In this document: positions 8,183-26,740 of the stretch, piece after piece
Layout: each line of letters begins with the position of its first letter
How positions within the stretch are numbered: position 1 is the first letter of the stretch
Source: a virus
DNA: 37,298 nucleotides
Strand: one strand, 5' to 3'
Virus record (IMG/VR): IMGVR_UViG_3300042731_000477
Span: 1 to 37,298 of that record
Made by a program: the position numbers and the translations under genes
The notes under the pieces: generated by a model
Seen by the model: the letters and a program-made list of their open reading frames with translations, nothing else
Told to the model about the DNA's origin: nothing
The model's database searches: none

Positions 8183-8192
8183 TAATTTACAA
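8183..8192 (-). promoter_or_regulatory. TTGTAAATTA motif before the portal gene
   Basis: The minus strand reads TTGTAAATTA in the 16-base gap between the fibre gene stop and the portal ATG, 5 bases before the start codon. The same 10-mer, or one with a single change, occurs in five other gaps of this operon. It resembles the T4 late promoter box TATAAATA; a translation signal is the alternative. Confidence 0.45.
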
Positions 8193-8193
8193 G

Positions 8194-9750
8194 TTAGTGG
8201 TCAAATCTAAAGTGAGGGAAATCAGATGAAGAGTTATCAATGTTGTACCAATTACCATCTTTTGATTTGGTCCAAACTTTAGTAAAGTCTGGTGTCTTGT
8301 TAGTATCTAATTGTGTTATATACATATTGTAATCAAAAGAACTTGCAGGAGGACTACCAACTATTGAGAAGTTAGATGTAATAGTTTCTTCTAATACAGT
8401 GCCATCAGTATACCCTTGTTGTACTTTTATGATAGATGTTCTATTTAACAAGTCATAATTGTAATTACCATCACCAACTGTAATTCTTAATAGTGTTGGG
8501 TCGTTTGTTGTAATGCCAGCGTTATTAAACACTATAGGACTGTACCCTTTTAGGGTAAATGTATCTCCGTCTATTGTAATTGTTTCTTCTGCGTAAGGTA
8601 ATGATACTATTTTGTTAGCACCTGCGCTATAGTTTGCCGCATAGAATCCGTTTTGAACAGGGGTTGTAGTTCCATCACTCCACTCAAAACCAGCGAAAAA
8701 ATAAGTTGTTACCTCTGCTGTAGCCGTTGCCAAAGAAGGTCTTACATTTGTTGCAACCTCAGTCATAACTTGATTTGAACCACTAAACGAAGGTGGATTA
8801 AATCCAAAAATAGGATAGACTGAAGCATCTGTACCTGCATTAATTGCTTGGAAGTCTATTGTTAGATTCCCATAGTTTTCCTCAACATATACATATAAAT
8901 TATATGTTTCAGTATTTACACTTTCAATATAATTTATAGGCGCTCTACCATTAAGTTGCATATCGTTTGCATCAGCTAAAGATTCAGCAACATACATTTG
9001 AACTTTTGCAGGTATGTAAACAGTATATATAGATGATGTGTATAAAACATTGTCATCGGCATCTAACCCTTCATATTTTACTTGAGCGACATCACCAAAG
9101 TTTATTGCCTCATTTTCTATATCAAACATTATTTGATTTATTGAACTCTTGGCTTGTGTCTTTGTAATAATATTGGCACTACTATCTTCGATAACAGCCC
9201 TTAATTTTTGTATAGAACTGCTAATGTTTGAAATTGATGCAATCCATGTCCAATTGTCAGTTCTAACTTGATATGGCTCGCTTAAAGTTCCATATTCAGG
9301 GTCCCAAATTTCTACATCAAATGAAGGAGAAGTAGAGCCACTGCTACCTGTACTTCCCGTTCCACCTGCAGTAGAACCACTGTCAGATGATTGTCCACTA
9401 TTTAGATTAGATAGGTCTGTGCTACCCAGCACAACTGAATCAGAGTAAATGTCTGTGCCGTGTACTTGGTATGAGTAAGATTCTACATTACACAAATACT
9501 TCACAGAACTGCTTCCATTGGTTAGGGTGAGGTAATATTCCCCACCCTCCAATGAGTTTGCTACAAGGTCTATATTCAACTGAATAAAGTCCTTACAGGT
9601 GTCTAAACCATTAAGGTCTTGAAGTTCTGTTAAAGACAGAGTTCCGTTACCTACAACCTTCTCTAAGGTCACATCAAATTCGTTAACAACATACCCGATG
9701 TTTTTAACAAAAGAAAGCGTATTTACAGCACCTGTCTTTAATCTCTTCAT
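8194..9750 (-). CDS. tail fibre / virion adhesin-like protein
   Basis: The 518-aa protein has an N-terminal beta domain (GGEYYLTLTNGSSSVKYLC), a Gly/Ser/Thr linker (about residues 118-142, repeated GSTGSSGST), and a long beta-rich C-terminal part with many Thr, Asn and Tyr. Multi-domain layout with a flexible linker is usual for fibres or decoration adhesins that bind cell-surface glycans. It lies between the portal and a coiled-coil protein. The C-terminus carries WTKSKDGNWYNIDNSS, an aromatic pattern often seen in receptor-binding tips. Exact receptor and fold are unknown. Confidence 0.6.
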   Translation of the reverse strand: MKRLKTGAVNTLSFVKNIGYVVNEFDVTLEKVVGNGTLSLTELQDLNGLDTCKDFIQLNIDLVANSLEGGEYYLTLTNGSSSVKYLCNVESYSYQVHGTDIYSDSVVLGSTDLSNLNSGQSSDSGSTAGGTGSTGSSGSTSPSFDVEIWDPEYGTLSEPYQVRTDNWTWIASISNISSSIQKLRAVIEDSSANIITKTQAKSSINQIMFDIENEAINFGDVAQVKYEGLDADDNVLYTSSIYTVYIPAKVQMYVAESLADANDMQLNGRAPINYIESVNTETYNLYVYVEENYGNLTIDFQAINAGTDASVYPIFGFNPPSFSGSNQVMTEVATNVRPSLATATAEVTTYFFAGFEWSDGTTTPVQNGFYAANYSAGANKIVSLPYAEETITIDGDTFTLKGYSPIVFNNAGITTNDPTLLRITVGDGNYNYDLLNRTSIIKVQQGYTDGTVLEETITSNFSIVGSPPASSFDYNMYITQLDTNKTPDFTKVWTKSKDGNWYNIDNSSSDFPHFRFDH

Positions 9751-9990
9751 TTACCCTTCAATTTCTTCGTACTCGCCTGTACTTAAATTTACATTAATAT
9801 CCCCGTATTTTTCTTTTAGGGATTCGCGAGATTTGTCAAGTTCATCTTGCGCACTTTCGTAGTTAGACAAAAGGTTTGCTTTTTCAATTTCAGCAGCGCC
9901 TAATGCAGTTTTGATGTCAGTCATTAGTTTGACCAACGATTGCAATCTTGTCAACTCCTCTTCTGTGATTTTCATTTCTTTCTTTGCCAT
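9751..9990 (-). CDS. small coiled-coil protein
   Basis: The 79-aa protein is a nearly continuous heptad-like helix (KITEEELTRLQSLVKLM, AEIEKANLLSNYESAQDEL), ending in a short strand and acidic tail GEYEEIEG. It lies immediately before the adhesin gene, TAA followed directly by ATG at 9750. A trimerisation or chaperone helper for the fibre is a fair inference. No family is known to me. Confidence 0.65.
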   Translation of the reverse strand: MAKKEMKITEEELTRLQSLVKLMTDIKTALGAAEIEKANLLSNYESAQDELDKSRESLKEKYGDINVNLSTGEYEEIEG

Positions 9991-10052
9991 TATTATAATA
10001 ATTTTATATTTACTAATATAGTATAATATTATTATAATATACTTATATGTTA
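9991..10052 (-). promoter_or_regulatory. AT-rich gap with TATTATAATA elements
   Basis: This 62-base gap before the coiled-coil gene is almost pure A/T. On the minus strand it holds TATTATAATAATATTATAC-like sequence followed by a second ATTATTATAATA directly at the ATG. The same core occurs in the control regions near 29.7 and 34.8 kb. It could be a promoter (TATAAT-like boxes) or a binding site. Confidence 0.4.
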
Positions 10053-10241
10053 CTAACTTTTAACAATTCTTCTGAAAATTCTGTATATCCCTTCAGGTAG
10101 ATTTTGGATATGGTCATATGCGTCTTCCTGGGAAGCGAAAACTTCGTGGTCGTTTTCCTCTAAATAAAGCTCCCAAGTACCATCGTTCATTAGAACAGTA
10201 CCATCTCCTATGTTTTCTATGTAGTAGTTATTTGTTACCAT
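10053..10241 (-). CDS. 62-aa hypothetical protein between fibre genes
   Basis: The product begins [20 protein letters not shown] and ends in PEGIYRIFRRIVKS, with the ATG overlapping the fibre gene stop by 1 base. It looks like a small beta-rich domain with an acidic middle. Position between fibre genes suggests a fibre-associated or assembly role, without further support. Confidence 0.5.
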   Translation of the reverse strand: MVTNNYYIENIGDGTVLMNDGTWELYLEENDHEVFASQEDAYDHIQNLPEGIYRIFRRIVKS

Positions 10242-12664
10242 TATACAATTCTTGTAATTGTGATTGCTCCGCCATCACCGTTAGTAGATGTTACTCCGTG
10301 GTTAATAGCACCTGCGTGTAAGAATGTTTCAAAGAATAAAACATCTCCTACACCCACCGTAACAGCAAATGTACTTGCGGTAGTACTCTTGTGGCCATAT
10401 GTATTGTAACGGAAATATTGTATGTTAGTACCACCTTGAATGGTAGCGCCATTTAGTTTAGCAGAAGCACCAAATGTGCTTCGGTTAGCATAGTACGACT
10501 GCCAATTTATGTTCCAAGAAATAAGGTATGTACCCGCTTGGTTAAATACAATTTCTGATTCACCTGAAATAGAAGTAGATGTAGAGCCGTTGATTTCTTG
10601 ACCTGCTAAAACAATAGGCTGTCTATTTGCCTCATAAACCATACCTGTTTGGAATAGGTATTTGTCAGGCCCGTACATACTGCCGTTAGCCCCTGCAGGA
10701 CCCTGAGGCCCCGTACTCCCGCTCGGCCCCTGCGGCCCCTGCGGCCCCGTGGCCCCCGCACTCCCTGCGGGACCTTGCGGCCCGATTGGACCCGTATCCC
10801 CTGTGTCCCCTTTGGCCCCTGCGGCCCCTGCGGGGCCTTGTGGCCCAATAAAATCAGGATAGTTAGCAGGTGTAAAGTCTGCGGGTACAACATAACCTGC
10901 ATCAGCGTGGTTACCCCATCCGTAAGCGGCAGCACCTTTGGCTAATTCAGGTATAACATCATTTTCAATACGAGCATCTACGGCAGCAGCAGAACCTGCA
11001 GGGTCAGCACCTACATCAGCAGCAGTAGTGCCGTGTGGGTTAGAGGCATTAACATGGTCGTATGCCCAATTAGAAGATATAGATTCTGCTGTTTGCCCAT
11101 TTACAGGAGTGTCATCAATACCACGCCAAGTGTTTGTGTTCGCATCGGAAGTAGTAACGCTAAAGGTAGTGTTGTCCGAACGAGTAAATGTGATAGTATC
11201 ATTTGATACTGTCGCTCCCTTAATAGGGTTTACTGAGGAGTCTAACTTAGTATCAATAGCAGGTAGAACCTCAGAGTTAATTCTATCATCAGCGTGAGCA
11301 ATAGCATTTGCTTGAGCGGTAGATGCAGAACCTGCGCTATCAAATGCAGATGTGTTTTGGTATGCAGCATTACCCACTTTGTTGCCGAACAAATATGTGG
11401 AGTTTGTATCTCCCTCTAATTGGAGTGGATGCGCTCCATCCCAACCATCGTTATTGTCTCTATCAACAAGTATGTAAAAGTTGTTAGAATTTACATGAAT
11501 ATAGAAATCATCGTGAGATGTATCGCTATCTCTAAATTTAATTTGAGGAGAGTTAGAGCCGTCAAATAGTAACTCACTTCCTTGTGCATCTCCTGCATTT
11601 CCTCCTTGAATCTTAACACCTCCTGTAAATGTAATTCTACCACTTGCAGTATCAGCAGTATTACTTCTTAAAAATGCAGAACTATCAATACCATCAAGTA
11701 AATTGGAGTCTGCTGCCTTACCTGTAGTTGTTAGATAACTGCCTGCATCTTGTTTAGCAGCTATAAGAGGTATAATCTCATCATCAATTCTTTGATGTAT
11801 AGAAGACTCTACTGCACCGAGTTCGGTGTCAGTTGTGTATGAAGCAGGTATAGAAGTAAGATAACGACCATCAAGGTCTACTGAGTTACCTCCGCTAATA
11901 GTTAGAACTCCATTAGTCCCGTTCCAAGAAAGTGTTTGACTATCAGTCTCAGATGTTAAGAAACCCTGAGAGTTAACCCAAGATTGTGTAGCATATCCTG
12001 CAGAGCCGTGATTACCCCAGCCATACGCAGTCTTAAAGTTTTGGATATTGGTTTTGGTCATTGCCTCACCATCCAATGTAAGTTGGTCACCTCTTAGATA
12101 TGCAGTTTTTCTTGTAGACCATCCTCCTGACCAATTCCCTGTGTGAGAATTAATCTCAAGTCCCTGTTCTGCATTTAAGTAGATGTATTCGTTAGTTTGT
12201 CCTGTAGCGTAAGAATGAGATTCACCTGCGTTAAGGACAAGTTGCTGGCCATTACCTTTGATGTAAGCATTAATGGTCAAAGCACCTGTTAGTGTACCAC
12301 CACTTAATGGTAGGTATGAGTGTGTGTGTGATGGTAGGCTTGTAAGGTATCCTGCTTCAGCGTGATTGCCCCATTCAAATGCCTGTACGCCTTTTGCTGT
12401 ATCGGCAGCAGTACCGTATGATGATGATAAATTAGGTATTCTTGCGGCGTTAAGAGTACCTGAAGTGATTTTACTTGCATCAAGATTAGGGATGCGTGAA
12501 GTGCTGAACGAACCGCTATTGACCTTACCCGCATCAAGGTTAGGCATTCTTGAAGCGTTAATTGTACCGCTTGTAATTTTAGAAGCATCTAAGTTTGGAA
12601 CATCAGATGCAGTGATATTCATTGAACCTTCTACATCAACCCCATTAAGAATCTTGATAGCCAT
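10241..12664 (-). CDS. large tail fibre with collagen-like region and C1q-like tip
   Basis: The 807-aa fibre starts with a repeated segment [18 protein letters not shown] (four versions in residues about 25-80). It continues with three [10 protein letters not shown]-type motifs and three 'RIxxEVxPxI' helical units ([37 protein letters not shown]), then a collagen-like Gly-X-Y stretch (about 607-662). The last 145 residues have the look of a trimeric C1q/TNF jelly roll ([26 protein letters not shown]). Such fibres are trimers that bind host surface structures. The gene is preceded by a hairpin and a TTGTAAATTC motif. Confidence 0.82.
10679..10846 (-). repeat. collagen-like Gly-X-Y coding repeat
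   Basis: About 18 consecutive Gly-X-Y triplets ([27 protein letters not shown] ...) are encoded here, making the DNA locally much richer in G and C than its surroundings (runs such as CCCCTGCGGCCCC). The repeat probably forms a triple-helix stalk that joins the shaft of the fibre to its C-terminal head. Repeat-number variation by slippage or recombination would be expected. Confidence 0.85.
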
Positions 12665-12680
12665 AAAACACTTTTTGATT

Positions 12681-12710
12681 AAAAAAGAGGGAGGGAAACC
12701 CCTCCCCCTC
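12681..12710 (-). terminator. intrinsic terminator/attenuator after the fibre gene at 12728
   Basis: On the minus strand a G-rich arm (GAGGGGGAGGGG) pairs with CCCTCCCTC around a short TTT loop and is followed by TTTTTT. It is one of three hairpins built on GGGGAGGG-type arms in the virion operon, and would lower transcription of the distal fibre and portal genes. Confidence 0.7.
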
Positions 12711-12716
12711 TATTAA

Positions 12717-12726
12717 GAATTTACAA
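12717..12726 (-). promoter_or_regulatory. TTGTAAATTC motif
   Basis: The motif lies 1 base after the stop of the gene ending at 12728 and just before the terminator hairpin. It differs from TTGTAAATTA in the last base. If it is a promoter, the new transcript would begin at or just before the hairpin. Confidence 0.35.
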
Positions 12727-12727
12727 A

Positions 12728-13903
12728 TTATGCAGCACCAACGGCAGCACACATATAGTCTACGCCATTTTCCAAGAAGGCAAATGCTACGCCACTACCA
12801 TCTTGAGTGATGTCAGTAAGAACAACTCCACCTGTGTTAGTGTCATAAATTTGAATGTTAGCGAAACTATTGATTCCTGAAGCAGTCAAATCAATTGGAG
12901 TGTTTGCACCCGCACCTGTAACTACTACCTGTGCAAATACAGGAATAGTTGGTTTGTTAGTTAGGTTGTTGTAGTTGCGGTAGTAAGCCGAAGACTGACC
13001 ATCCAACAAATCTGCATCAAGACCTGAACCTGCACCATCAACTGTTTTGATTTTAGCAAGAACATCAGCAGCCGTGTACGCAGATGTGTTCAACTTGTTA
13101 CCCAATGCAGTGGTGATTGTGGTAGCAAAGTTAGGGTCATCATTCAACGCAGCAGCGAGTTCGTTCAATGTATCCAATGCAGCAGGAGCAGAAGATACAA
13201 CACCTGCAACAGCAGTATCCACATAAGAAGTAGAAGCAAGTCCTTGTAAGTCAGTTAGGTTTGCCTTAGCATCAAGGATGTCAGGAAGTTCGTTAATCTC
13301 CGTAATGTCGTGAGTGTGAGCAGAAGGAGCAAAAGTAGTAGGAATACCTGTCAATGAAGAGTATGCTCCATTGAAGTTAGAAGTACCCGCACCGATTACT
13401 GTACGAACCTCAGCAGCAGTAATACCTGTTACAAGAGCAGGTACACCATTGTTATCACGAATAGCAGGAGCATAAGTTGCAGTTGCACCTGCCTCAATGC
13501 TGTTTAAGTGGTCAAGTAATTCCTGAGTAAAGTTAATCTGAGTAAGACCGCCATCACCAATGCTATAAGTAGTATCAGTAAATACAGCGTTAGCAGGTAC
13601 ATTGGTTAATACTTGAGAGTCATCAACCTTACCATTCAAAGCAGTTTGCAAACCTGATACATTGCTAATCGCAATAGTACCAACGCTAACTACACCTTCA
13701 CTTTCAGTAATTGTAGAGCCATCAGCAGTTAATCCTACACGGACAAATCCTGTTCCATTGTGTACAAACACAGCATTCGCCTGTGTATTAAAGTAAATGC
13801 GACCCGCCCCAGCAGTTTCAGGGTTGGTTGCTAAGTTTTGGAGCGAGAAATTCTGTACTTCATTCCCACCCAAATCTAAATCAACTAAATATTTTAGAGC
13901 CAT
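12728..13903 (-). CDS. tail fibre protein
   Basis: The 391-aa protein begins MALKYLVDLDLGGNEVQNFS and AGRIYFNTQANAVFVHNGTG, an N-terminal attachment-type domain found in many marine phage fibres. It continues with repeated units including FAPSAHTHDITEINELP, APAALDTLNELAAALNDDPN and DADLLDGQSSAYYRNYNNL, classic fibre-shaft motifs. The C-terminal tip is a small beta domain (QVVVTGAGANTPIDLTASG). It probably forms a trimeric fibre that works with the collagen-type fibre downstream. It ends with Cys (DYMCAAVGAA). Function is well supported, receptor unknown. Confidence 0.8.
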   Translation of the reverse strand: MALKYLVDLDLGGNEVQNFSLQNLATNPETAGAGRIYFNTQANAVFVHNGTGFVRVGLTADGSTITESEGVVSVGTIAISNVSGLQTALNGKVDDSQVLTNVPANAVFTDTTYSIGDGGLTQINFTQELLDHLNSIEAGATATYAPAIRDNNGVPALVTGITAAEVRTVIGAGTSNFNGAYSSLTGIPTTFAPSAHTHDITEINELPDILDAKANLTDLQGLASTSYVDTAVAGVVSSAPAALDTLNELAAALNDDPNFATTITTALGNKLNTSAYTAADVLAKIKTVDGAGSGLDADLLDGQSSAYYRNYNNLTNKPTIPVFAQVVVTGAGANTPIDLTASGINSFANIQIYDTNTGGVVLTDITQDGSGVAFAFLENGVDYMCAAVGAA

Positions 13904-13920
13904 TTTAGTTTTTGTTTTTA

Positions 13921-14277
13921 TTAATTAAGAAAAGCTTTTCCCTTAAAAGGGTATTTGAATCGGACAACAAGTCTATCATTGTCCAAGTACTCAACCTCGC
14001 CAACAACCTGAGTATTAGCAGAATCCACTGCAGTTACTGAAGGTTTTTTGCCTAAGTTGTGTTCTATAACCCACTCTAATTCAGTGGTTGTTTGGTCGTG
14101 CGTGTATGATGTTAATGATTCTCCGTTAACTCTTACATCAGTTTGAGATACTGATATAGGCAACAGGTTACCATTACCATCACTAAGTTGTACTTCGCCT
14201 GATACCTCTTGACTGTCAGCAGTCTTTATCAGACCCTTGTATGTATCTTTTGGTTTATTTCCTGTAAGTGTAGCCAT
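13921..14277 (-). CDS. small virion/fibre-associated protein
   Basis: The 118-aa beta-rich protein has ELEWVIEHNLGKKPSVTAVD and then VEYLDNDRLVVRFKYPFKGK, a pattern seen in C-terminal domains of phage tail fibre or tail spike partners (HNLGKxP followed by aromatic strands). The ATG overlaps the preceding stop as TAATG. It is probably a baseplate or fibre accessory domain; the exact role is unknown. Confidence 0.55.
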   Translation of the reverse strand: MATLTGNKPKDTYKGLIKTADSQEVSGEVQLSDGNGNLLPISVSQTDVRVNGESLTSYTHDQTTTELEWVIEHNLGKKPSVTAVDSANTQVVGEVEYLDNDRLVVRFKYPFKGKAFLN

Positions 14278-14423
14278 TATTCAGTTTCCCAAGTGTCGTT
14301 AATCATTTCCCATCTCATCTCAATAGCGTTCCAATACGATGAATCAAACTCGTAACTCTTGCCCATAACAACGGCAGATGTTACAGTAGCAGCTTGTACC
14401 GATATTCCTAACGCTAATATCAT
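14277..14423 (-). CDS. 48-aa Trp-tailed small virion protein
   Basis: I start at the ATG at 14423 (MILALGISVQAATVTS), which overlaps the previous stop as TAATG; an earlier start at 14459 would overlap that gene by 37 bases. The N-terminus is hydrophobic and signal-like. The C-terminus YWNAIEMRWEMINDTWETE closely resembles the tail of the protein at 14683-14937, suggesting duplicated attachment motifs. It lies within the block of small virion proteins. Confidence 0.55.
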   Translation of the reverse strand: MILALGISVQAATVTSAVVMGKSYEFDSSYWNAIEMRWEMINDTWETE

Positions 14424-14695
14424 TATCCTATGTAAGCAAGAACTACACCTTGGTAGCAAGACACCTGGGTAAAGCGGCCAAAGATTGTTGCTCCTGTGGC
14501 CAACACTTGACCTGTCAATGAGTCCCCAATCTCTGATACAGCATTAATGCTTGCCTCTTGTAGACATACCACAATGCGGTAAGTCTCACCTGCGGGAGTA
14601 GTTTCGTTTGGTCCAAGTCTACGGAAGCCATAATCTCCCATTGATGCTTGGTAATAGTTTCTGTCTTTTGTAATGTTGTCCATTATACTTGCCAT
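14423..14695 (-). CDS. small virion-region protein
   Basis: The 90-aa product has a beta-rich centre (AGETYRIVVCLQEASINAV, GATIFGRFTQVSCYQGVVLA). Its length and position between the tube candidates and the fibres suggest a small tail or baseplate component. The start overlaps the upstream gene by 13 bases. Another in-frame Met at residue 5 could be used. No family is recognised. Confidence 0.6.
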   Translation of the reverse strand: MASIMDNITKDRNYYQASMGDYGFRRLGPNETTPAGETYRIVVCLQEASINAVSEIGDSLTGQVLATGATIFGRFTQVSCYQGVVLAYIG

Positions 14696-14937
14696 AAATT
14701 ATCAATGGTTTCCCATTGCATATCAATCAATTCCCAATTGACTCCCCATCCGCTTGACTGCTCAATAATAACATTTGAGTAGAGTCCTGTTGCTCCCGTG
14801 AGGTAGTCCAATCTTCCAATGTTTTCTTGGATTGCATCTGCACTGTACCCAATAGGAAGAGAAGGGATGTAATCAAGAAAGCCCTTATTATATTGAGTAG
14901 CAGAACTGCTATATCCTTGTGTCGAGGTAACATACAT
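14683..14937 (-). CDS. small virion-region protein with Trp-rich tail
   Basis: The 84-aa protein begins MYVTSTQGYSSSATQYNKGF and ends in VNWELIDMQWETIDNLWQV. The last part is shared in style with the 48-aa protein two genes downstream (W-E/I-x-ID-x-QWE-x-I-x-x-x-W). This may be a docking helix for a common partner. ATG overlaps the preceding stop by 1 base. Confidence 0.6.
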   Translation of the reverse strand: MYVTSTQGYSSSATQYNKGFLDYIPSLPIGYSADAIQENIGRLDYLTGATGLYSNVIIEQSSGWGVNWELIDMQWETIDNLWQV

Positions 14938-15452
14938 TATGGTAATTGTATTATTCCTTCATCGCTTACATTAAGAGATGAAATCCAACTATCAGTTCTT
15001 AGTGTAACATCAACATATGACAACTCAGATTTAGATGCGCCACTTGCCGCACTGTAATCCATTGTCAATCCATCCATCCATCCGCTAATAGATATGTTTC
15101 CATTGTTGTGGAACAGGATACACACTATGTCGCTTCTTCTTGACATATAATCAATCTTGTTAATCTTTCTGTCAATAGATGGAAGCCTAACGAGAATCTC
15201 AGTGTTCACAACACCAAGTCCATTCTCGGTAGTTTTTGATTCGTTAAAAATTGTAGTAGAATCTTTTGGATTATGCTCAAACACAACTGAGTTAAGCAAC
15301 TCAAGATTTGTTACAAGCGTTTCATCAATAGGGTCAAGAGAGATTGTTAGGTCTCTTTGAAGCCCAAGGACAACTCGTTTAATACCACCTGTGTTCTTGG
15401 CGTTACAGTTCAAGTCAATGTCCTCAAGAAAAATGCTACAATTAAAACTCAT
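14937..15452 (-). CDS. tail-tube-like protein, paralogue 2
   Basis: The 171-aa protein starts NCSIFLEDIDLNCNAKNTGG followed by IKRVVLGLQRDL and so aligns with the upstream protein at 15519-16061. Both share a Cys-strand-Cys start, the GG(I/L)K(K/R)V-x-LG turn, an acidic LP/IP middle strand, and a final GW/GYxxGL...SG...T-L segment. The pair is consistent with major tail tube or tail-decoration proteins, both built on beta-sandwiches, but this is inference from order and fold guess. It is separated from its paralogue by a terminator hairpin. Confidence 0.5.
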   Translation of the reverse strand: MSFNCSIFLEDIDLNCNAKNTGGIKRVVLGLQRDLTISLDPIDETLVTNLELLNSVVFEHNPKDSTTIFNESKTTENGLGVVNTEILVRLPSIDRKINKIDYMSRRSDIVCILFHNNGNISISGWMDGLTMDYSAASGASKSELSYVDVTLRTDSWISSLNVSDEGIIQLP

Positions 15453-15463
15453 ACTTTTATAAT

Positions 15464-15497
15464 AAAAAAAGGGGAGGGGAATTACTCCCTCCCCCTT
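15464..15497 (-). terminator. intrinsic terminator between tube-like paralogues
   Basis: On the minus strand AAGGGGGAGGGAG pairs with CCCCTCCCCTT around a short loop (TAATT region), followed by TTTTTTT. It resembles the other two operon hairpins in sequence and would reduce expression of paralogue 2 and everything downstream relative to paralogue 1. Confidence 0.75.
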
Positions 15498-15501
15498 GTA
15501 G

Positions 15502-15511
15502 TAATTTACAA
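15502..15511 (-). promoter_or_regulatory. TTGTAAATTA motif
   Basis: An exact copy of the 10-mer lies 7 bases after the stop of the gene at 15519 and just before the terminator hairpin. It is 49 bases before the next ATG at 15452. As a promoter it would give a transcript with the hairpin at its 5' end. Confidence 0.4.
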
Positions 15512-15518
15512 GAATTGC

Positions 15519-16061
15519 TTATGCAATTACATCAGCCCATTCAGTAGCATCAATTGCCAAAGACAAGCTATCTTCCTCACCTGTTAGGGTGATTTGGTAA
15601 CGGTTCTTCTCTGAACGACCTGTTCCTGAGTTACCATCTACAGTAGCAGCGTACAAGCCGTACTCGTAACCTACCATATGGTAAGTACCTGCAGCAGTTT
15701 CTACGAATGCAACCAATTCAGCACCTGGCTTACAGATGTTATCCAAAGCGTTACGGTGGTCAGCAGACATTTTAGGAATTTCGATAGAGATAGTTGGTAC
15801 TGAGTTAACAACACCATCAGCAGTTACAGTTTTAACTTCACTGAATACAGAGAAGCCATCTTTCAAGTTGAACTGAACTTCGATAACATCGCCATCAGTG
15901 TCCAAACCTGTAGTCGTAGGGTTAATAGTGACTACATTGTTAGCAACAGAAACAATACCATCAAGGTCAGCTTTATTACCGAGGTATACTTTCTTTAGAC
16001 CACCAATTCCAAGGTCATCACAAGAGAAAGTTACATCAGCAAGAGTGATATTACAAGCCAT
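15519..16061 (-). CDS. tail-tube-like protein, paralogue 1
   Basis: The 180-aa protein starts MACNITLADVTFSCDDLGIG followed by GLKKVYLGNKADL and ends in ATEWADVIA. It has the same architecture as the gene at 14937-15452. It lies directly downstream of the major capsid gene and is flanked on both sides by terminator hairpins, which suggests that its amount is tuned separately, as for a major virion protein. A tail tube or capsid-cementing role fits; the sequence cannot decide between them. Confidence 0.55.
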   Translation of the reverse strand: MACNITLADVTFSCDDLGIGGLKKVYLGNKADLDGIVSVANNVVTINPTTTGLDTDGDVIEVQFNLKDGFSVFSEVKTVTADGVVNSVPTISIEIPKMSADHRNALDNICKPGAELVAFVETAAGTYHMVGYEYGLYAATVDGNSGTGRSEKNRYQITLTGEEDSLSLAIDATEWADVIA

Positions 16062-16089
16062 TTGTTATTCGTTTTTAAGGGTTAAGAGT

Positions 16090-16117
16090 AAAAAGGGGAG
16101 GATAACCTCCCCTCTTT
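16090..16117 (-). terminator. intrinsic terminator after the major capsid gene
   Basis: On the minus strand AGGGGAGG pairs perfectly with CCTCCCCT around a TTAT loop, followed by TTTTT. It lies 9 bases past the capsid gene stop and would let the capsid message end here, with read-through supplying the downstream genes. Confidence 0.85.
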
Positions 16118-16126
16118 ATTCAGTTA

Positions 16127-17014
16127 TTAAGCGTGAGCGTAAACGATTTCCTCGCCTTTCAAGTAAGAGAAACCAAGTTTGAATTGGCCCCAAATCTTGT
16201 CAGAAGACAACTCAGCTTCGTACTTCATGTCGATAGCACGAACATCGTTGTAGTCATCAGTCAACATCACCAAGTTCTGTGGAGCAGATACGATGAACTC
16301 GCCTGCAGGTAGACTTGGGAAGTGTACAACTTCCATACCGAAGTAAGGAGGAATGTTACCTTCTACGATACCTTGAGGAGTAGTAGTGTACTTCTCAGCG
16401 ATAGCGATTTGGTAAGCTTGCATAGCAGCAGTACCCAAGAAGAAAGCAGGTTTGAAGTCACGGTCAGCATCGCCGTAAACAGCAGCCAACATAACATCAG
16501 ACATCAAACCGTAAGCAGTTTCCATCTCATCCAATACTGTAGTAGCAGAAATACCACCAGCGATAACGCTATCAATTACATCAGCATCAGCAGTCATCTC
16601 AGTAGTTAATTCTGAAGCAGCAAGCTCAAGAGCTTTCTGAGAAGATAGTTTTGCGAAGTAGTCAAATACCCAATCTTTGAACTCAGCGTCCATAGTTTCA
16701 GGGTTGTGTTGACCTTTTTTCAATAACAAGCCACGGTAAGAATCTTCAAGAGCATTCTTACAGTTTAAGAAAGACCACTTGTAAGTGTCAACAGTCATTT
16801 CTTTTTCACTAATAGAAGCAGAGCTTTGTGGGTCAAAGGTACAAATGTCGCTACCGAAAGTAAGGGCAGCATCAAAAATAGGTACATTTACTTTAGCCTT
16901 AACACCATCAACCAAGCGGAAACGGTTTAGGACTGCAGCAGATTTTACCATAGAGTCGATGAACAAGTCACGAGAACGGTCACCGTAAGGTAGGTTAGAA
17001 ATAGATACAGACAT
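16127..17014 (-). CDS. major capsid protein (HK97-fold type)
   Basis: The 295-aa protein directly follows the protease/scaffold gene, the standard place for the capsid gene. The N-terminal region (RDLFIDSMVKSAAVLNRFRL) is helical. The C-terminal half has the A-domain/P-domain feel: FKPAFFLGTAAMQAYQIAIA, FPSLPAGEFIVSAPQNLVML, then DDYNDVRAIDMKYEAEL, DKIWGQFKLGFSYL. The last segments are similar in layout to capsid proteins of Bacteroidota phages. It should assemble the icosahedral shell. The gene has a TTGTAAATTA motif 32 bases upstream and a strong terminator downstream, both consistent with high expression. Confidence 0.85.
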   Translation of the reverse strand: MSVSISNLPYGDRSRDLFIDSMVKSAAVLNRFRLVDGVKAKVNVPIFDAALTFGSDICTFDPQSSASISEKEMTVDTYKWSFLNCKNALEDSYRGLLLKKGQHNPETMDAEFKDWVFDYFAKLSSQKALELAASELTTEMTADADVIDSVIAGGISATTVLDEMETAYGLMSDVMLAAVYGDADRDFKPAFFLGTAAMQAYQIAIAEKYTTTPQGIVEGNIPPYFGMEVVHFPSLPAGEFIVSAPQNLVMLTDDYNDVRAIDMKYEAELSSDKIWGQFKLGFSYLKGEEIVYAHA

Positions 17015-17046
17015 TTTTATCTAAATTTTAATTAGTTCGTTTTAAT

Positions 17047-17056
17047 TAATTTACAA
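17047..17056 (-). promoter_or_regulatory. TTGTAAATTA motif before the capsid gene
   Basis: An exact 10-mer lies 2 bases after the protease gene stop and 32 bases before the capsid ATG, in a 44-base AT-rich gap. A T4-late-like promoter here would give a capsid message with a short leader, the most conventional geometry among the six copies. Confidence 0.5.
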
Positions 17057-17058
17057 TT

Positions 17059-18147
17059 TTATTTGCGGTTGAAGAATTTGTTAATCATCGCAACTTTCTC
17101 AGGAGTAATTCCGTTAAAGTGTACTGTCTTGTCTTCAACTGTTTCTTCAGCTTCTTCAGCCTTTTGTTCCGCAGCGAACTGCTCTTCAATAGACTCTTCA
17201 GTAACTTCTTCTTCAGCGTTAAACTCTTCAGCAACTTCTTCGGCTACTTCCTCAGTAGCTTCGTAGTTCTCTTCTTCTTCCTTTTGAGCAACAACAACTG
17301 CTTCTTCACCTGCAGGAGCAATACTCTTTGCTGGCGCTTCTTCAGCCATTTCTTCTTCTTTTTCATCTTCAGTATGCTCGCCCATTTCTTTTTCCTCTTC
17401 TTGAGGTGCGCCCATACTTTCAATGTGCTTTTGAATCATTTCGATTGCGCTTTTTAGTTCTTCAACGCCACCAAACTTTGCTTCAAAAGAGGTCAATGTC
17501 TCTAAAAGAATTGCATTTTCTTCTTCAAGAGATTGAATTTGTGCTTCAAACTTAGCAACAGTAGCCTCAAATGTAGCTTCCATTTTGCCGAGTTCTTTAG
17601 CGAAAGTAAATTCAGTCATTTCTTCGTTATTTACAGGTTTAATATCGGCTTGTATCTCAATTGAGAAGCCATTAACTTCACCGCCTTTAATAGCGGAAAA
17701 CAATTCGTCAGACTCAATTTTAGCCTTGACAAATACAGTTCCATTTGGAAGGTCATAACCATAGTCTTTAGACTTATCGTTATCAGACTCTTTCATCCAA
17801 ACTTCAAGCATCACCACATCCTGAGTGTCGTACTCGTGGTGGATACCAAATTCGTTGAACAAACCCTTTTTAGAGTAGTTATACATAATATCACGGATTG
17901 TTTCTTCCGTGAACCTAACATAGTAATATCCGTTCTCAGGACTGAAGCGTAGGATTTGTTTATTAGGAATCATAATTGGTCCTACTACTTCTTTCTTTTC
18001 ATCGTTCGCGAACATCTCTACTACCTCGGTTTTGTTGAAGTAGATAAAGTTTTCTTCAATCGCAGGTTTGTCCACGAGAGAGATTTTGTACATACCCTGC
18101 TCAAAATCCTCAAGTGTAATATCGTATAGTGGTAAATCCTTATTCAT
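17059..18147 (-). CDS. XkdF-like prohead protease fused to a scaffold
   Basis: The N-terminal part (residues 1-170) resembles the XkdF-type serine protease: MYKISLVDKPAIEENF near the start, a His pair in FGIHHEYD (103-104), and Ser162 in GEVNGFSIEI as likely nucleophile. From about 180 it changes to a long coiled coil (KMEATFEATVAKFEAQIQSL) and then an extremely Glu-rich tail, ending with ITPEKVAMINKFFNRK. The protein thus combines maturation protease and scaffolding functions in one chain, and the scaffold would be degraded before DNA filling. It is placed just before the capsid gene. Confidence 0.8.
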   Translation of the reverse strand: MNKDLPLYDITLEDFEQGMYKISLVDKPAIEENFIYFNKTEVVEMFANDEKKEVVGPIMIPNKQILRFSPENGYYYVRFTEETIRDIMYNYSKKGLFNEFGIHHEYDTQDVVMLEVWMKESDNDKSKDYGYDLPNGTVFVKAKIESDELFSAIKGGEVNGFSIEIQADIKPVNNEEMTEFTFAKELGKMEATFEATVAKFEAQIQSLEEENAILLETLTSFEAKFGGVEELKSAIEMIQKHIESMGAPQEEEKEMGEHTEDEKEEEMAEEAPAKSIAPAGEEAVVVAQKEEEENYEATEEVAEEVAEEFNAEEEVTEESIEEQFAAEQKAEEAEETVEDKTVHFNGITPEKVAMINKFFNRK

Positions 18148-18917
18148 TACTTCTTACTTCTTTTATGCCAACTTGGTAACAAGTCGTTGTCCTGTGTGTA
18201 CTTAGGGTTAGATGGTCTACCATTCTTAACCAGATACATAAATGCGTTTAATCTTGCAAGTCCCCATTGTACTGCTGAGGTGACCTTCGGTGAGTGAGAT
18301 GTATTGTATGCACCCATACCACGAAGTACAACACGCTTTGCAGCTCCGACACCAATCTTTTTATCGGGGTACTTGTCATTGTATTTGTTTACCTTATTGG
18401 TAATTTGTTTTATAATCGCAGGAGATAGTTTGCCACCTTTTCCAACACCCTTCGGATTCTTCTCAGGAGTTCCGCTTTTAGGCGCTTTGGGAGACTTTTT
18501 AATGCTTCCATCCTTGCCTTGCGTTGCGAGTTTATCTTCCACTTTACGGTCACCCCACGGGTGGTCACCGCTGTCAACACTTGCCTTAACAGTTCCTCTT
18601 CGGATTGCTTCAGCCTTCTTAATGGCCCAATTAACTCCACTCGTTCCTCCCCAACCAAGCCAAGCGACATAGCCTCTATCTTTCCAAGGAGTACTCTTGT
18701 ACTTAGGGTCAATTTCAGCATTCTTGCGGTGGCGATTAAACGCAGCCATACGAGCAATAGTTTCATAACTCAATTTTTGTTTGTTAGCTAACTGATTGGC
18801 ACGAGTCCATCCAACAGAGGTCATTCCCTTAACCTCCTTACCATACTTCTTTTTCCACGCAAGTACTTTCTTTGCGTTGTTAGATGCTGATGCAGGATAA
18901 TCGTTATAAGTAGCCAT
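18147..18917 (-). CDS. DUF5824-like head-region protein
   Basis: The 256-aa basic protein has an N-terminal module (AKKVLAWKKKYGKEVKGMTS, LSYETIARMAAFNRHRKNAE, WLGWGGTSGVNWAIKKAEAI), a Lys/Gly/Pro linker (about 125-170), and a C-terminal module around GVGAAKRVVLRGMGAYNTSH followed by QWGLARLNAFMYLVKNG. The latter matches my memory of the DUF5824 domain found in large phage and mobile-element proteins. The ATG lies 5 bases after a TTGTAAATTA motif, and its stop overlaps the protease ATG (TAATG). A virion or head-assembly role is inferred from its place. The biochemical activity is unknown. Confidence 0.6.
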   Translation of the reverse strand: MATYNDYPASASNNAKKVLAWKKKYGKEVKGMTSVGWTRANQLANKQKLSYETIARMAAFNRHRKNAEIDPKYKSTPWKDRGYVAWLGWGGTSGVNWAIKKAEAIRRGTVKASVDSGDHPWGDRKVEDKLATQGKDGSIKKSPKAPKSGTPEKNPKGVGKGGKLSPAIIKQITNKVNKYNDKYPDKKIGVGAAKRVVLRGMGAYNTSHSPKVTSAVQWGLARLNAFMYLVKNGRPSNPKYTQDNDLLPSWHKRSKK

Positions 18918-18922
18918 ATGAA

Positions 18923-18932
18923 TAATTTACAA
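18923..18932 (-). promoter_or_regulatory. TTGTAAATTA motif before the head gene cluster
   Basis: The exact 10-mer begins directly after the tail gene stop at 18933 and ends 5 bases before the ATG at 18917, the same geometry as at the portal. It marks the switch from tail genes to the head cluster. Confidence 0.45.
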
Positions 18933-21620: not shown

Positions 21621-22183
21621 CGTTGAGCAATCTTAAAGGTAGTCTTTTGACTAAATGTGTTATTTATATTTGCGTATGATTCTTCGCTTAAAGATACACC
21701 ATATGCAAATAAATCGCAGTTGTCCACAAAGATTATTTTGTTTGCACTTACCACATCTTCAAATTCACCAAAGAATTTTCTATTTTCCTTATTAATCGCA
21801 ATGAAATAATCAGTAGTAATGTTATAAGCCTTTAGGTCGTTTCCGTAAACAGCCCTGTTAACACTTGTTTGTATATCGTAAGAAGAAACTTTACTGTAAA
21901 CATCTGCTCTATATATTGTTCCTCCAAGTACATCTTGCGGAAGAATATCTGTAAACAACTTATAGATTCTCTGGTCAAACTTAAAATAGTTTCCGAATCT
22001 ATCGGTAGCAACACCGTACACACCTTTTATCTTATTGCCATCCCTGTAGCGTAGGTGCATAACATCTCCCTCTTGAAAATCATCAGGAAGTGACTGAAGG
22101 TTAAAGATGTTACCTCTAACCTCAATCGTATCAAACCCAGGTGCAGATTCTTGGACTGCTACTGTTCTAAAACTGTAACTCAT
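21617..22183 (-). CDS. distal tail protein candidate
   Basis: The 188-aa protein sits between the tape measure and the large baseplate protein, overlapping each by 4 bases (ATGA at 22183). It is beta-rich (PGFDTIEVRGNIFNLQSLPD, GDVMHLRYRDGNKIKGVYG). Order and size would fit a Dit-like ring protein, but no family motif is evident. A tail assembly role is likely. Confidence 0.55.
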   Translation of the reverse strand: MSYSFRTVAVQESAPGFDTIEVRGNIFNLQSLPDDFQEGDVMHLRYRDGNKIKGVYGVATDRFGNYFKFDQRIYKLFTDILPQDVLGGTIYRADVYSKVSSYDIQTSVNRAVYGNDLKAYNITTDYFIAINKENRKFFGEFEDVVSANKIIFVDNCDLFAYGVSLSEESYANINNTFSQKTTFKIAQR

Positions 22184-25100
22184 ATTCTATCGTTTCTTTC
22201 TCTTAGTCTTCTTTCGTTAGCACTCTTACGAAGGTCTTTGTCAGAAACAAATGCCCTCATTGGCTTGCTTGTTTGGATTGCAGTAGAAGATGTCGCTTCA
22301 GCAATAGCCTTTAGATAATTTACACTTTCTTCGTTGGATGCGTTAACATTTGTAACGCTACTTGTAACTATACCGCCCTGTGCAAACTTGAGCGGTTGTA
22401 CAGTTGCATTTGGCTTAACAGAATTGTTAATAGACTCAAGCAATGCACGGTGTAAAGAAGATGCTTTCTTGTTTACGATAAACTCTCCACCTTCCATTTC
22501 GTATCCACCCTGTCCCTGTACAGTAAAAGGCACGCCACCCTGTGCGTGCGATGGTCCTTCTACAAGACCCCCTTCTTCGTACTTAACAGGGTAGAACTTA
22601 CGAGATGCAATAGCAGCAGATTTCGCTGCACCTGCTCCAAGGATAGTGGCATAACCAAGAGCTGTTTGGATACCTGCGTTGATAGTATCGTACTTATCAA
22701 AGTTGTTTATAGCGTTAGATGCAATTGCTTGCAATGTTTCAACACCCACCAACTGCAAGTCTCTTTTCTTTTCAGCTTCAAAGATTTGCTTGTTAATCTC
22801 GTTTTCTTCTTGAATCTCTTTTTTCTTAAGCTCTTCTGCTTTAGCACGATACTGAGACTCTGTAATTAGCTGATTATTTAAGCTGGCCTTTAACAAGTCC
22901 TCTTCAATTTCGTATCTTTCTTTAATGGCATCAATCTCAGACTTTAATCTGTTTTTAGTGTTCTCAAGCTGAGTTTTACTCGCTTCTCCAAGAACATCTC
23001 CTGCCGCCTGATTTATCTGATTGTACAAGTCAACCCACTTTTGCTTCTCTTCATCTCTTACTTGTTGAGCATAATCAAGGTCCTCTTGTGTTATAGGATA
23101 CAACGGATTAAATTGGAACTTAACATCTGTAGCCTTATCCGCCAATTCATCGAAGAAAACTTCGAGTTCAGGAGTAAGCTCAACCAAATCCTTAAGAGAC
23201 TGAACAGTTCTTTGGATACCTTCGGTCATTGCTGCACGGCTATTGTTGTAAGTTTCTTGACTTATCTCGCCATCTTCAAGTTTTTTATTTAGGTCTTCAA
23301 GTCCCTTGGTGTAATCATCAAAAGCATCCCTTGCTTTATCTATAACCTCTGACTGCTCAATGGTAGCACCCTCTCTTGCTTTTTCTGCAGCCTTAGATAT
23401 TTCATAAGCAAAGTCCTTGTACTTCTCGCCAAGAGATTTTAATTGACTTTCTTCATATCTGTAAGCCGCTGACACAGCAGCAGAGCGGTTTAACTCAATC
23501 TCGGCTCTTTCTTCTGCACTTAGTGCAAGGGCCGTCTGAACTTTTGCCTGTTCGTTAATGGCATCTACCTCATCCTTTCTTTGTTTTTGAATTTCAGCAA
23601 GTTCTCTTTGAAAGGCTTTTTTTCTCGCTGCTTCTCTTTTCCTTCTCCTTTCAAGCAGGGTATCCTCGGCTACTTGCAAGCTTCTGACTCTTTCATACTG
23701 CTCGTTAAGATTTTCGTTCTCAAGCTCAAGAATTTTTATCCTTTCCATTTCCTGTTGTGTAGGCGCACCCGATGAACGCAATGCTACAATCTCGTTTAAG
23801 TTTGCTGCAATATCTGATTGTATTTTTCCTAAAAGACCTGCCTTTCTTGATTGGTCATCATACCCCGCAGCGAAAACAGAGAGAAGGTCTGCATATTCTT
23901 GCCTGTAAGCTATAACCTCATCTGTGTTTGCTTGCTGCTTTAAGTATATAAGGTCTTGAACTTCAGCTTGCTCTCTTAGCGTGCCTACCAATTCTTTAAC
24001 GGATGCAGCAAATCTTCTGCTTTCCATAATGTTGAGCTTTATAGCCCTATCAAGCGACTCGTTTAGGTCTAAACCCAACCTCATGCCTTCCCTTAAATCA
24101 CGATATATGTCTTTTACAGCGTAATCACTAAAGTCTCCAGTTTCTTTCAATATAGCTATTGATTCTCCAAGCAGCTGATTTTCACTCACTGCACGGTCAG
24201 TATCTTCGGTATAAACCCTAAGACTATCTGTAAGACCATCTAACGATTCTTTTGTTTCTATAGAAGCATCATTAATTATTCTATAAACATTTGCAAGAGC
24301 TGCAGACTTTACATCAAATGTTTGTATGAGACCTAAGAAAAAATTAGATTGGGTAATTACTTCACCTAAAGATATAGAGAACTTATCGTAAGCGGATTTA
24401 AGTATATCAATCTGACCCTGGGTCGTTGCCATCTGTTTTACATTCGCATTGAACAGCCTGTCTGAATCAGCTAACTGAGTGTTCAAATCTTTTACTTCGC
24501 TCGTTGTTCTTGATAAAATCAAAGCAGCACCAGCACCTCTTTTTCCGAAAATATCTAATGCTTTCGCTGCACTAAGACCTTCATCTGCGATTTCTTGTAT
24601 AAATTCATTAAATGGCTTACCTGACTTAGCTGCCTCCGCTAACACGGCTCTAAGACCTGTACCTGCTCTTGAGGCTGTTAGTCCATTATCTGCAAGGACA
24701 CCGAGGTAAGATGCTGTCTCCTCGAAAGAAAGACCCGCTTGGTATGCAAGCGGACCTACATACTGCATAGATGTGCCAAGGGTTTGTAGAGAAAGAGCAG
24801 ATTCATTTACAATACCTACAATAGCATTTGAAAATCTTCCTGCTTCTTGTGTCGTTTGACCGAACTGATTTAAGAATTTTTTAACCGCTGTTGCAGCACC
24901 ATCAGGAGACTCACCAAGTGCTTGTGCAAGCAGTGCGATTGGCCTTGTTAGTTTTACAATATCATCTGATGATGTACCAAGCTTTGCAAGTTGCTTTTGC
25001 AAACCAGCTACCTCCTCTGCTGTAAAAGATGTAGAACCTGCTACCCTAAATATTTCTTCGCCAAGTTTCTTTGTCTCGTTTTTCGTAAGACCTGCAATTG

Positions 25101-25575
25101 CAGACAAGTCGGCAAGAGCTTTTTCAAACTTTATAGCTCTTTTGAAAGAAGCAAATGTAAGCTCATTAAATACCCTAAGAACTATCACTATAGCTTGCAT
25201 CGCAAGGAAGTACTTAGTCAATGTGGCGAGTACAACCTTTAAGGATGTTGCGAGCGCCCTAACACCATTTCCAGCACTTTTAGCAGATTTCCCTGTAGCT
25301 ACTAATGTCTTACTAAACTTAGACTGTGCGTTTGCAGCAGCAGTAATAGAAGATGTGTGCTTAGAGTTCTCTGCGTTTAGAGAACGCATTTTTGCTCTTA
25401 TCTGGTCATCAATCTTTAGACCTTTTTGCTTCTCAGCGTTTAGTTGCTTAAGCTTGAACTTATATTGTTCACTGCCTTTTGATAGCTTTTTAAGCTCGGC
25501 ATATAGTTTTCTAACATTCCCCTCTGTTTGAAGTAGGTTAGCTGCTAACTGTTTTACTGTCGTTTTTTGTGCCAT
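22180..25575 (-). CDS. tail tape measure protein
   Basis: At 1131 aa this is the longest gene. It contains a TP901-type PhageMin_Tail-like segment around residues 150-360 (KALADLSAIAGLTKNETKK, STSFTAEEVAGLQKQLAKLG, AGLSFEETASYLGVLADNG, ASRAGTGLRAVLAEAAKSGK) between a Lys-rich coiled-coil start and a long central helical region. Further coiled coils lie at 600-900 and a Gly-rich region at 1015-1060 (GGLVEGPSHAQGGVPFTVQG). It sets the tail length; at the commonly quoted ~0.15 nm per residue the tail would be about 170 nm. There is a hydrophobic stretch near AIVIVLRVFNEL. Confidence 0.9.
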   Translation of the reverse strand: MAQKTTVKQLAANLLQTEGNVRKLYAELKKLSKGSEQYKFKLKQLNAEKQKGLKIDDQIRAKMRSLNAENSKHTSSITAAANAQSKFSKTLVATGKSAKSAGNGVRALATSLKVVLATLTKYFLAMQAIVIVLRVFNELTFASFKRAIKFEKALADLSAIAGLTKNETKKLGEEIFRVAGSTSFTAEEVAGLQKQLAKLGTSSDDIVKLTRPIALLAQALGESPDGAATAVKKFLNQFGQTTQEAGRFSNAIVGIVNESALSLQTLGTSMQYVGPLAYQAGLSFEETASYLGVLADNGLTASRAGTGLRAVLAEAAKSGKPFNEFIQEIADEGLSAAKALDIFGKRGAGAALILSRTTSEVKDLNTQLADSDRLFNANVKQMATTQGQIDILKSAYDKFSISLGEVITQSNFFLGLIQTFDVKSAALANVYRIINDASIETKESLDGLTDSLRVYTEDTDRAVSENQLLGESIAILKETGDFSDYAVKDIYRDLREGMRLGLDLNESLDRAIKLNIMESRRFAASVKELVGTLREQAEVQDLIYLKQQANTDEVIAYRQEYADLLSVFAAGYDDQSRKAGLLGKIQSDIAANLNEIVALRSSGAPTQQEMERIKILELENENLNEQYERVRSLQVAEDTLLERRRKREAARKKAFQRELAEIQKQRKDEVDAINEQAKVQTALALSAEERAEIELNRSAAVSAAYRYEESQLKSLGEKYKDFAYEISKAAEKAREGATIEQSEVIDKARDAFDDYTKGLEDLNKKLEDGEISQETYNNSRAAMTEGIQRTVQSLKDLVELTPELEVFFDELADKATDVKFQFNPLYPITQEDLDYAQQVRDEEKQKWVDLYNQINQAAGDVLGEASKTQLENTKNRLKSEIDAIKERYEIEEDLLKASLNNQLITESQYRAKAEELKKKEIQEENEINKQIFEAEKKRDLQLVGVETLQAIASNAINNFDKYDTINAGIQTALGYATILGAGAAKSAAIASRKFYPVKYEEGGLVEGPSHAQGGVPFTVQGQGGYEMEGGEFIVNKKASSLHRALLESINNSVKPNATVQPLKFAQGGIVTSSVTNVNASNEESVNYLKAIAEATSSTAIQTSKPMRAFVSDKDLRKSANERRLRERNDRI

Positions 25576-26276
25576 TATCCAAGTGATATGTTAAGTGCAT
25601 CTACTGCAAAGCTACGCAATTGAGTCCCGTATAGTTCTGCAATTCTTAATGCTATTTCAGGTTTTGCTTTTTCTATTGATGCCCTCACACCTTTCTTTGG
25701 GTCATCAAATGGTTTTAAGAAATCGCTTTTGTATTCGGAGTATTTAATACTCATATTGATTATATATCTCAAAGCATCTCTATGCCACTGTATGTTTTCA
25801 TTATATTTGTAAATCCTTGTCTTCCCCTTGGAAGTTCCTGATACATAGAATCCTTTTGCGGGGTTTCTAAAATATCTTGACTTCCCTTTTTTAGCGGAAA
25901 TCCAATTCATTAAAGCAGCTTCAGGAACTCCCTTCCCTCTATACGGAGTACCCTCCACAAGACCTTGATACTTTTGTTCGTTAAGACCATAACGGATATT
26001 TACCCCAATGCTAACAGCCATCGGGTATTGCTTTCCGTATTGACTCATCCTCATTATTTTTACAACAACGCTATTCCTATTTATCAAGAATCTGTCATCA
26101 TCAGAGGGCAATAAGCTGGCTGTTAACTTTGGCATAGAAAGTTCCCCTGTAGCAACAAGCTTATCTTTTTTGATATTCCTTACTACACGCTCTACAATCT
26201 TAGCCTTCCTAAACTGCTTACTCAAAGCAGCGACTACGATTACCTTAATTATATTTCTATACTGCCCCTCAGTCAA
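25575..26276 (-). CDS. tail/neck completion protein (gp10-like)
   Basis: The 233-aa basic protein lies just upstream of the tape measure. It shows a helical N-terminus, then beta strands and YRGKGVPEAALMNWISAKKG, a segment typical of the HK97-gp10-like neck proteins in this phage type. The C-terminus is helical (IEKAKPEIALRIAELYGTQL). It overlaps the tape measure start by 1 base. A role in the head-tail interface or tail completion is inferred from layout and this motif. Confidence 0.55.
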   Translation of the reverse strand: MTEGQYRNIIKVIVVAALSKQFRKAKIVERVVRNIKKDKLVATGELSMPKLTASLLPSDDDRFLINRNSVVVKIMRMSQYGKQYPMAVSIGVNIRYGLNEQKYQGLVEGTPYRGKGVPEAALMNWISAKKGKSRYFRNPAKGFYVSGTSKGKTRIYKYNENIQWHRDALRYIINMSIKYSEYKSDFLKPFDDPKKGVRASIEKAKPEIALRIAELYGTQLRSFAVDALNISLG

Positions 26277-26280
26277 GGTG

Positions 26281-26718
26281 TTAGTCGTTTATGCCCTTGT
26301 TGTAAGGATTTCTTCCAAGTCTTACATCAAAGTCTGAGTACACTCCTGTGATGTTGTGGTCCTCGAATGCAGTAGCGGTAAGCTCTACATCATCAAAATC
26401 AACATCAATGTTCTGCTGCAACATAAAGTCCTGCAACTGACCAAGAATAAAAATATTCTCTTCCATTGATGCAATAGACATCTCAGGGTCGTGAGAAGAT
26501 ACTTGGTCTAAGATTACAGCGGTGAATGTTAGCGTGTATACAGGTGAGTTCAAGTCTCTTGAAATATTCGAGCTGCTCGGAACTATAACCAATGTTCTGT
26601 AGTCAAATTCTCTGTTCTCTAATTCACCCTCAGATGATACCATAATGAACTCATTGACCATTTGGTGTTCAGTCGCGAAATACTTGAGTTTACCGTATAT
26701 GTCTCGCAGATTATTCAT
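26281..26718 (-). CDS. tail terminator / neck protein candidate
   Basis: The 145-aa protein has the mixed alpha/beta layout of tail-terminator proteins: an N-terminal helix (LRDIYGKLKYFATEHQM), a strand segment (SPVYTLTFTAVILDQVSSHD), then a long helix (MEENIFILGQLQDFMLQQN) and a final strand pair. Place before the gp10-like gene supports it. The ATG is 12 bases after the TTGTAAATTA motif. The identification is from fold-like patterning only. Confidence 0.5.
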   Translation of the reverse strand: MNNLRDIYGKLKYFATEHQMVNEFIMVSSEGELENREFDYRTLVIVPSSSNISRDLNSPVYTLTFTAVILDQVSSHDPEMSIASMEENIFILGQLQDFMLQQNIDVDFDDVELTATAFEDHNITGVYSDFDVRLGRNPYNKGIND

Positions 26719-26730
26719 AATATCTTTATT

Positions 26731-26740
26731 TAATTTACAA
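26731..26740 (-). promoter_or_regulatory. TTGTAAATTA motif overlapping a stop codon
   Basis: The exact 10-mer occurs 12 bases before the ATG at 26718. Its TTG TAA bases are also the last Leu and stop codon of the upstream gene (26735-27448), so this copy is partly coding. It is the first copy met by transcripts entering the tail genes. Confidence 0.4.

Follow-up and report, generated by a model that had tools for sequence, protein, structure and literature searches.

A conserved ten-base box as a probable late promoter, and a gp55-like protein as its proposed reader, in small uncultivated tailed phages

What does a ten-base sequence do when it stands repeatedly in the gaps between the virion genes of a phage? 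The question is raised by IMG/VR record IMGVR_UViG_3300042731_000477, all 37,298 bases of which (the window) were analysed, both strands being searched for the box TTGTAAATTA. The first-pass annotation had reported six minus-strand copies and had proposed a T4-like late promoter recognised by a gp55-like sigma factor, with a translation signal as the rival explanation. It is argued here that the box is very probably a late promoter element read by a phage factor of some kind, and probably a single-box promoter of the gp55 type, read by the small gp55-like protein encoded at 4298-4711. The system looks like a compact version of the T4 late-gene switch. Unnamed genes are referred to by coordinate, and the features are collected in Table 1.

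All six copies were found where they had been reported. The form TTGTAAATT(A/C) occurs six times on the minus strand and never on the plus strand, and the copy at 12717, described as carrying one change, departs from the others in its last base alone. For the exact 9-mer, ~0.45 occurrences would be expected on the minus strand, where six are observed; within the gaps of the late operon, 474 bases in all, the six boxes compare with 0.01 expected, and 2000 shuffles of the gap bases produced a maximum of one. Each of the six lies inside a gene gap. With one mismatch allowed there is no enrichment in the whole window (14 seen vs 11.5 expected), and the signal therefore consists of the exact box together with its placement. 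The box starts 0-7 nucleotides (nt) past a stop codon at each site, in keeping with its earlier description as lying at or just after a stop, and at 26731 it has the stop codon within it. From the end of the box to the ATG there are 5 nt at 8183 and 18923, the two sites already singled out for this distance, 12 nt at 26731, 32 nt at 17047, 49 nt at 15502 and 52 nt at 12717.

Relatives were collected with the portal protein, which gave 79 IMG/VR loci, mostly at 66-88% identity; 16 longer related records were read whole, so that 17 records including the window were compared, and the region upstream of each homologous gene was scanned for the box. Enrichment in the gaps of related genomes was one of the points on which the first-pass annotation had staked its proposal, and the box does recur in the same gaps, nearly letter for letter, in ~90 related phage sequences. 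It precedes the portal gene in 67 of 67 relatives (56 with TTGTAAATTA and 11 with TTGTAGATTA), the capsid gene in 20 of 20, gene 18147 in 15 of 15 and gene 26281 in 14 of 14. Upstream of the 10241 fibre gene, the box or TTGTAGATTA is found at the same place in 3 of 7 relatives. Much of this set is closely related, and the counts are not independent events; flanks less than 80% identical to one another surround a kept box in 22 cases at the portal gene, 12 at 14937, 10 at 26281 and 9 at the capsid gene. A deeper clade, with portal proteins ~63-65% identical to that of the window, also keeps the box upstream of the portal gene, and its longer records have it upstream of 18147 and 26281 as well.

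The distribution of the box within the genomes is equally restricted. No box was found upstream of 6428, 9751, 12728, 15519, 17059, 18933, 26735 or terL, each with at least 12 homologues, and the replication-side genes have none except for one stray TTGTAGATTA upstream of p36448. The box is confined to late and lysis genes and its orientation always follows late transcription. A promoter for the host's primary sigma factor, or a repeat left at recombination boundaries, would suit a short, AT-rich element at gene boundaries, but the single orientation and the many boundaries without a box speak against such a repeat. The host group is probably flavobacterial, where leaderless messages are known (5.5%), but flavobacterial sigma-A promoters carry a TAnnTTTG box near -7 (PMC9723704), which TTGTAAATTA does not fit and which is absent from the late box. 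At the six sites there is no TTG-N17-23-TAnnTTTG pair, and a sigma-70 promoter scan gave sites no more numerous than in shuffles. Both versions of this explanation are very unlikely. In a scan of genome contigs for the host, a 3.8-kb contig (L116) in a bin labelled Euryarchaeota was found to carry genes of this phage family, most likely as stray phage DNA or a binning error.

Beyond these relatives, a megablast search against phage isolates gave no match, and a literature search for TTGTAAATTA returned only unrelated items among the matches listed. The nearest isolate by portal protein is Nonlabens phage P12024S (NC_018271), at 25% identity over 61%; the annotation of its gp33 includes sigma region 2, and its late strand has no TTGTAAATTA.

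The spacing of the box bears on whether it acts in transcription or in translation. Genes of one class have their ATG at an almost constant distance from the box, whereas across classes the distance varies between 5 and 58 nt. If the box were a signal for translation, placed ahead of start codons in hosts that do not use Shine-Dalgarno pairing, this would account for the exact 5 nt at the portal gene and 18147 in most relatives, and Flavobacterium ribosomes use other upstream features (PMC6847099). Elsewhere, however, the spacing is 12-13, 28-34 or 47-58 nt, sometimes with a hairpin in between, and the majority of genes in this operon are not preceded by a box; this alternative is therefore disfavoured, and we regard it as scarcely credible. 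A second constant was found downstream of the box. Regardless of how far off the ATG lies, an A is present at base 5 or 6 past the box at all conserved structural sites. In non-redundant flanks of the four classes in which the ATG plays no part, base 6 is A in 37 of 37 and base 5 in 34 of 37, and at the portal gene base 5 is A in 25 of 25 flanks. Upstream of the box, positions 5-20 nt away hold 0.03-0.27 bits, with no conserved -35 element in this span.

If the conserved A is taken as the probable first base of the message, it sets the position of the box relative to +1. The portal and 18147 messages are then predicted to begin at the AUG or at most two bases upstream of it, leaderless or nearly so, and the other four units of the window would have leaders of ~7 to 47 nt. 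The earlier suggestion of nearly leaderless messages thus fits these two genes; it does not extend to the other sites, two of which have a hairpin in the leader.

This arrangement can be compared with that of T4, where a late promoter has a single 8-bp box, which spans -13 to -6 and lies about one helical turn from the start; the DNA downstream is AT-rich, and the -35 region shows no conservation (PMC2988020). As in the T4 late system and its factor gp55 (PMC2988020; PMC7892883), there is a single AT-rich box of 8-10 bp about one helical turn before the predicted +1, there is no -35 element, the downstream DNA is AT-rich and the genes that follow are late structural ones. When TGTAAATT is aligned to TATAAATA at -13 to -6, base 5 past the box falls on +1 and 6 of 8 positions match. 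The full T4 consensus is not matched. Further differences are that the phage has a genome of ~37-43 kb and is not T4-like, that a start codon lies at the predicted +1 in two units, and that no gp33 or sliding clamp was recognised here. The T4 relative Aeh1 also has a gp55-type box changed at -13/-12, a position known to vary (PMC2988020), but with (a/g)C there in place of the TG found here, in an unrelated phage group.

A different kind of explanation has the box acting as RNA: the genes would share one long message, and the box in its spacers would mark, say, a site of processing or antitermination near stops and terminators. The box is always close to an upstream stop codon. It is found upstream of 14937 in 20 of 24 relatives, but in 24 of 26 when the 3' flank of gene 15519 is taken as the reference, because it remains there, with the 3' end and the hairpin, even when another gene follows. 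On the other hand, four of the six window sites have no hairpin, and although the hairpin at 15502 is kept in relatives, L063 has it without a box, so that hairpin and box are separable. An RNA element would also turn the promoter-like spacing to A and the presence of a gp55-like factor into coincidences, and on balance it is improbable. No double-sided change was seen in a covariation analysis of the 15502 hairpin, the case for which therefore rests on its sequence and T run. If the boxes are promoters, such a hairpin may terminate transcripts arriving from upstream and form a 5' stem on the new one; alternatively, it may attenuate. Another GC-rich hairpin with a T run, 3' of the predicted capsid gene (16094-16113, minus), has no box and may set the ratio of capsid to tail tube.

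Table 1. Features of the window bearing on the proposed late promoters; functions and starts are predictions.
Feature	Position	Strand	Remarks
gp55-like factor, 137 aa	4298..4711	plus	sigma region-2-type fold; proposed box reader
Late box TTGTAAATTA	8183..8192	minus	5' of portal gene; predicted start 8178 or 8177 (A of ATG)
Late box TTGTAAATTC	12717..12726	minus	5' of 10241 fibre gene; predicted start ~12711, hairpin immediately after
Late box TTGTAAATTA	15502..15511	minus	gap 15519/14937; predicted start 15497 or 15496, at hairpin foot
Late box TTGTAAATTA	17047..17056	minus	5' of predicted capsid gene; predicted start 17042 or 17041
Late box TTGTAAATTA	18923..18932	minus	5' of 18147-18917; predicted start 18918 or 18917 (A of ATG)
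Late box TTGTAAATTA	26731..26740	minus	overlaps stop codon of gene 26735; predicted start 26726 or 26725
Portal gene	6936..8177	minus	PHROG portal family; predicted leader 0-2 nt
Gene 18147	18147..18917	minus	function unassigned; message predicted leaderless or nearly so
Predicted major capsid gene	16127..17014	minus	weak family match; predicted leader ~27 nt
Gene 26281	26281..26718	minus	first gene downstream of box 26731; function unassigned
Gene 14937	14937..15452	minus	first gene downstream of box 15502; function unassigned
Tail-fibre-like gene	10241..12664	minus	downstream of box 12717
Terminator-like hairpin with T run	15468..15497	minus	3' of gene 15519, just past box 15502
Terminator-like hairpin with T run	12691..12710	minus	just past box 12717
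ECF-like sigma factor	34852..35568	plus	second sigma; regions 2 and 4; 5/17 records
Related box CTGTAAATTA	3929..3938	plus	inside ORF 3903-4115, upstream of gp55-like and lysis genes; possible promoter
Related box GTGTAAATTA	4957..4966	plus	gap 5' of ORF 4996 and endolysin gene

The proposed reader of the box, the 4298-4711 protein, is encoded in every one of the 17 records and, within the deeper clade, in G018; G017, considered as a relative without the gene, was rejected as the record ends on both sides of the locus. Its AlphaFold model (predicted local distance difference test, pLDDT, 84) has as its best fold match T4 gp55 in the gp55-polymerase open complex (7d7c_F; Z 12.7, 1.7 Å over 91 residues), and other sigma region 2 structures follow at Z 10.1 and below, 2.6 behind gp55. 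Like gp55, the protein is predicted to have the fold of sigma region 2 without region 4; at the sequence level any similarity to gp55 is weak at best, and a Pfam search returned nothing convincing. It is thus the predicted fold that suggests membership of the gp55 family. The gp55 residues that read bases are H95, Y97 and T99 (PMC7892883). By an ungapped correspondence (97 to 113), and not by superposition, A79, L81 and I83 would take their places and the three residues would not be kept; such a change would fit an altered box. At the C-terminus, where gp55 proteins have a hydrophobic/acidic tail that binds the sliding clamp, many members have KDD(F/Y)LSEKL, which varies to KDDNISERL and RDDYTSRKL. 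The best viral fold match is a protein of Tenacibaculum phage pT24, the first 50 kb of which contain no TTGTAAATTA (the other 185 kb lay outside the search).

The box could instead be read by the second, ECF-like sigma factor at 34852-35568 or by some other unrecognised factor. The 34852 protein matches sigma region 2 and region 4 folds, and its C-terminus ALSFVYLDE (ALSFVY; AMSFLY in relatives) resembles the T4 clamp-binding tail LDFLYE. The family is, however, absent from G006, G008, G012 and G014, which span the locus, and from G018, all of which keep the box, and this makes it an unlikely box reader; with such patchy presence it was dropped as the main candidate, and the explanation as a whole is unlikely. 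At the same locus G008 (L090, 8846-9370, plus), G006 and G012 have a different protein of ~175 aa, which from its sequence reads like a DnaA-type helix-turn-helix DNA-binding domain.

Several points count against a gp55-type promoter read by the 4298-4711 protein. A profile comparison with ten gp55 proteins was not significant, and the PHROG late-sigma family was matched weakly by two of 20 members, the better with an E value of 0.0064; the earlier proposal of a gp55-like sigma as the reader therefore gains from a fold closest to that of T4 gp55 and lacks a link between sequence profiles. The box differs from TATAAATA at two of eight positions, including -12, a base that gp55 reads, where A is replaced by G. 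The hairpins at 15502 and 12717 begin at or near the predicted +1. Finally, no phage was found with the box but without the factor, or the reverse; box and protein occur together in every clade seen, so that the pairing has no contrast of presence and absence to draw on.

The lysis side adds two sites that the earlier list of six had overlooked, as it had the hairpins just past the boxes at 12717 and 15502. These plus-strand near-copies, at 3929 and 4957, are conserved in relatives. In the gap 5' of open reading frame (ORF) 4996, (A/G)TGTAAATT(A/C) is present in 24 of 24 relatives, and a TGTA(A/G)ATT box lies upstream of endolysin genes in 14 of 23. ORF 3903 has an internal TGTAAATT in 61 homologues, where the codons TGT AAA TTA are nearly fixed, at a joint usage of ~0.12, while adjoining codons vary. 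This suggests a constraint at the DNA level, though it could be one on protein or codons alone. The 3929 site, which lies upstream of the gp55-like gene, may be an intragenic promoter and may close an autoregulatory loop. Elsewhere on the plus strand, the window has a phosphoadenosine phosphosulfate reductase-like gene (1873-2715) without a homologue in the other 16 records.

Taken as gp55-type late promoters, these sites would work as follows. TTGTAAATTA would be the single -10-like element, at which host RNA polymerase with the small gp55-like protein, having a region 2 fold only, would open the DNA. Transcription would start on the A five or six bases past the box, and the boxes would begin late units at 26281, 18147, the capsid gene, 14937, the 10241 fibre gene and the portal gene, with the related TGTAAATT form serving the lysis side. 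For the portal gene and 18147, the first base of the message would be that of the AUG or would precede it by no more than two bases, and we infer that both messages are translated without a leader. The system would resemble that of T4 in its working; the factor may or may not descend from gp55. A more speculative extension, which we consider unlikely, is that small tailed phages, probably of Bacteroidota, combine a minimal region-2-only sigma with a fixed 10-bp box, virion messages that are leaderless, in a host whose translation does not use Shine-Dalgarno signals, and possibly a link to DNA replication by way of a tail attaching to the host sliding clamp.

If the proposed reading is true, T4-style late transcription with a region-2-only sigma factor would extend beyond T4-like phages to small ones, through a factor whose representative in the window escapes searches of Pfam and PHROG. 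For the uncultivated phages of this large group, the box could then help to map transcription units, and the portal and 18147 genes would offer testable cases of phage messages that begin at the AUG, in a lineage in which ribosomes do without Shine-Dalgarno signals.

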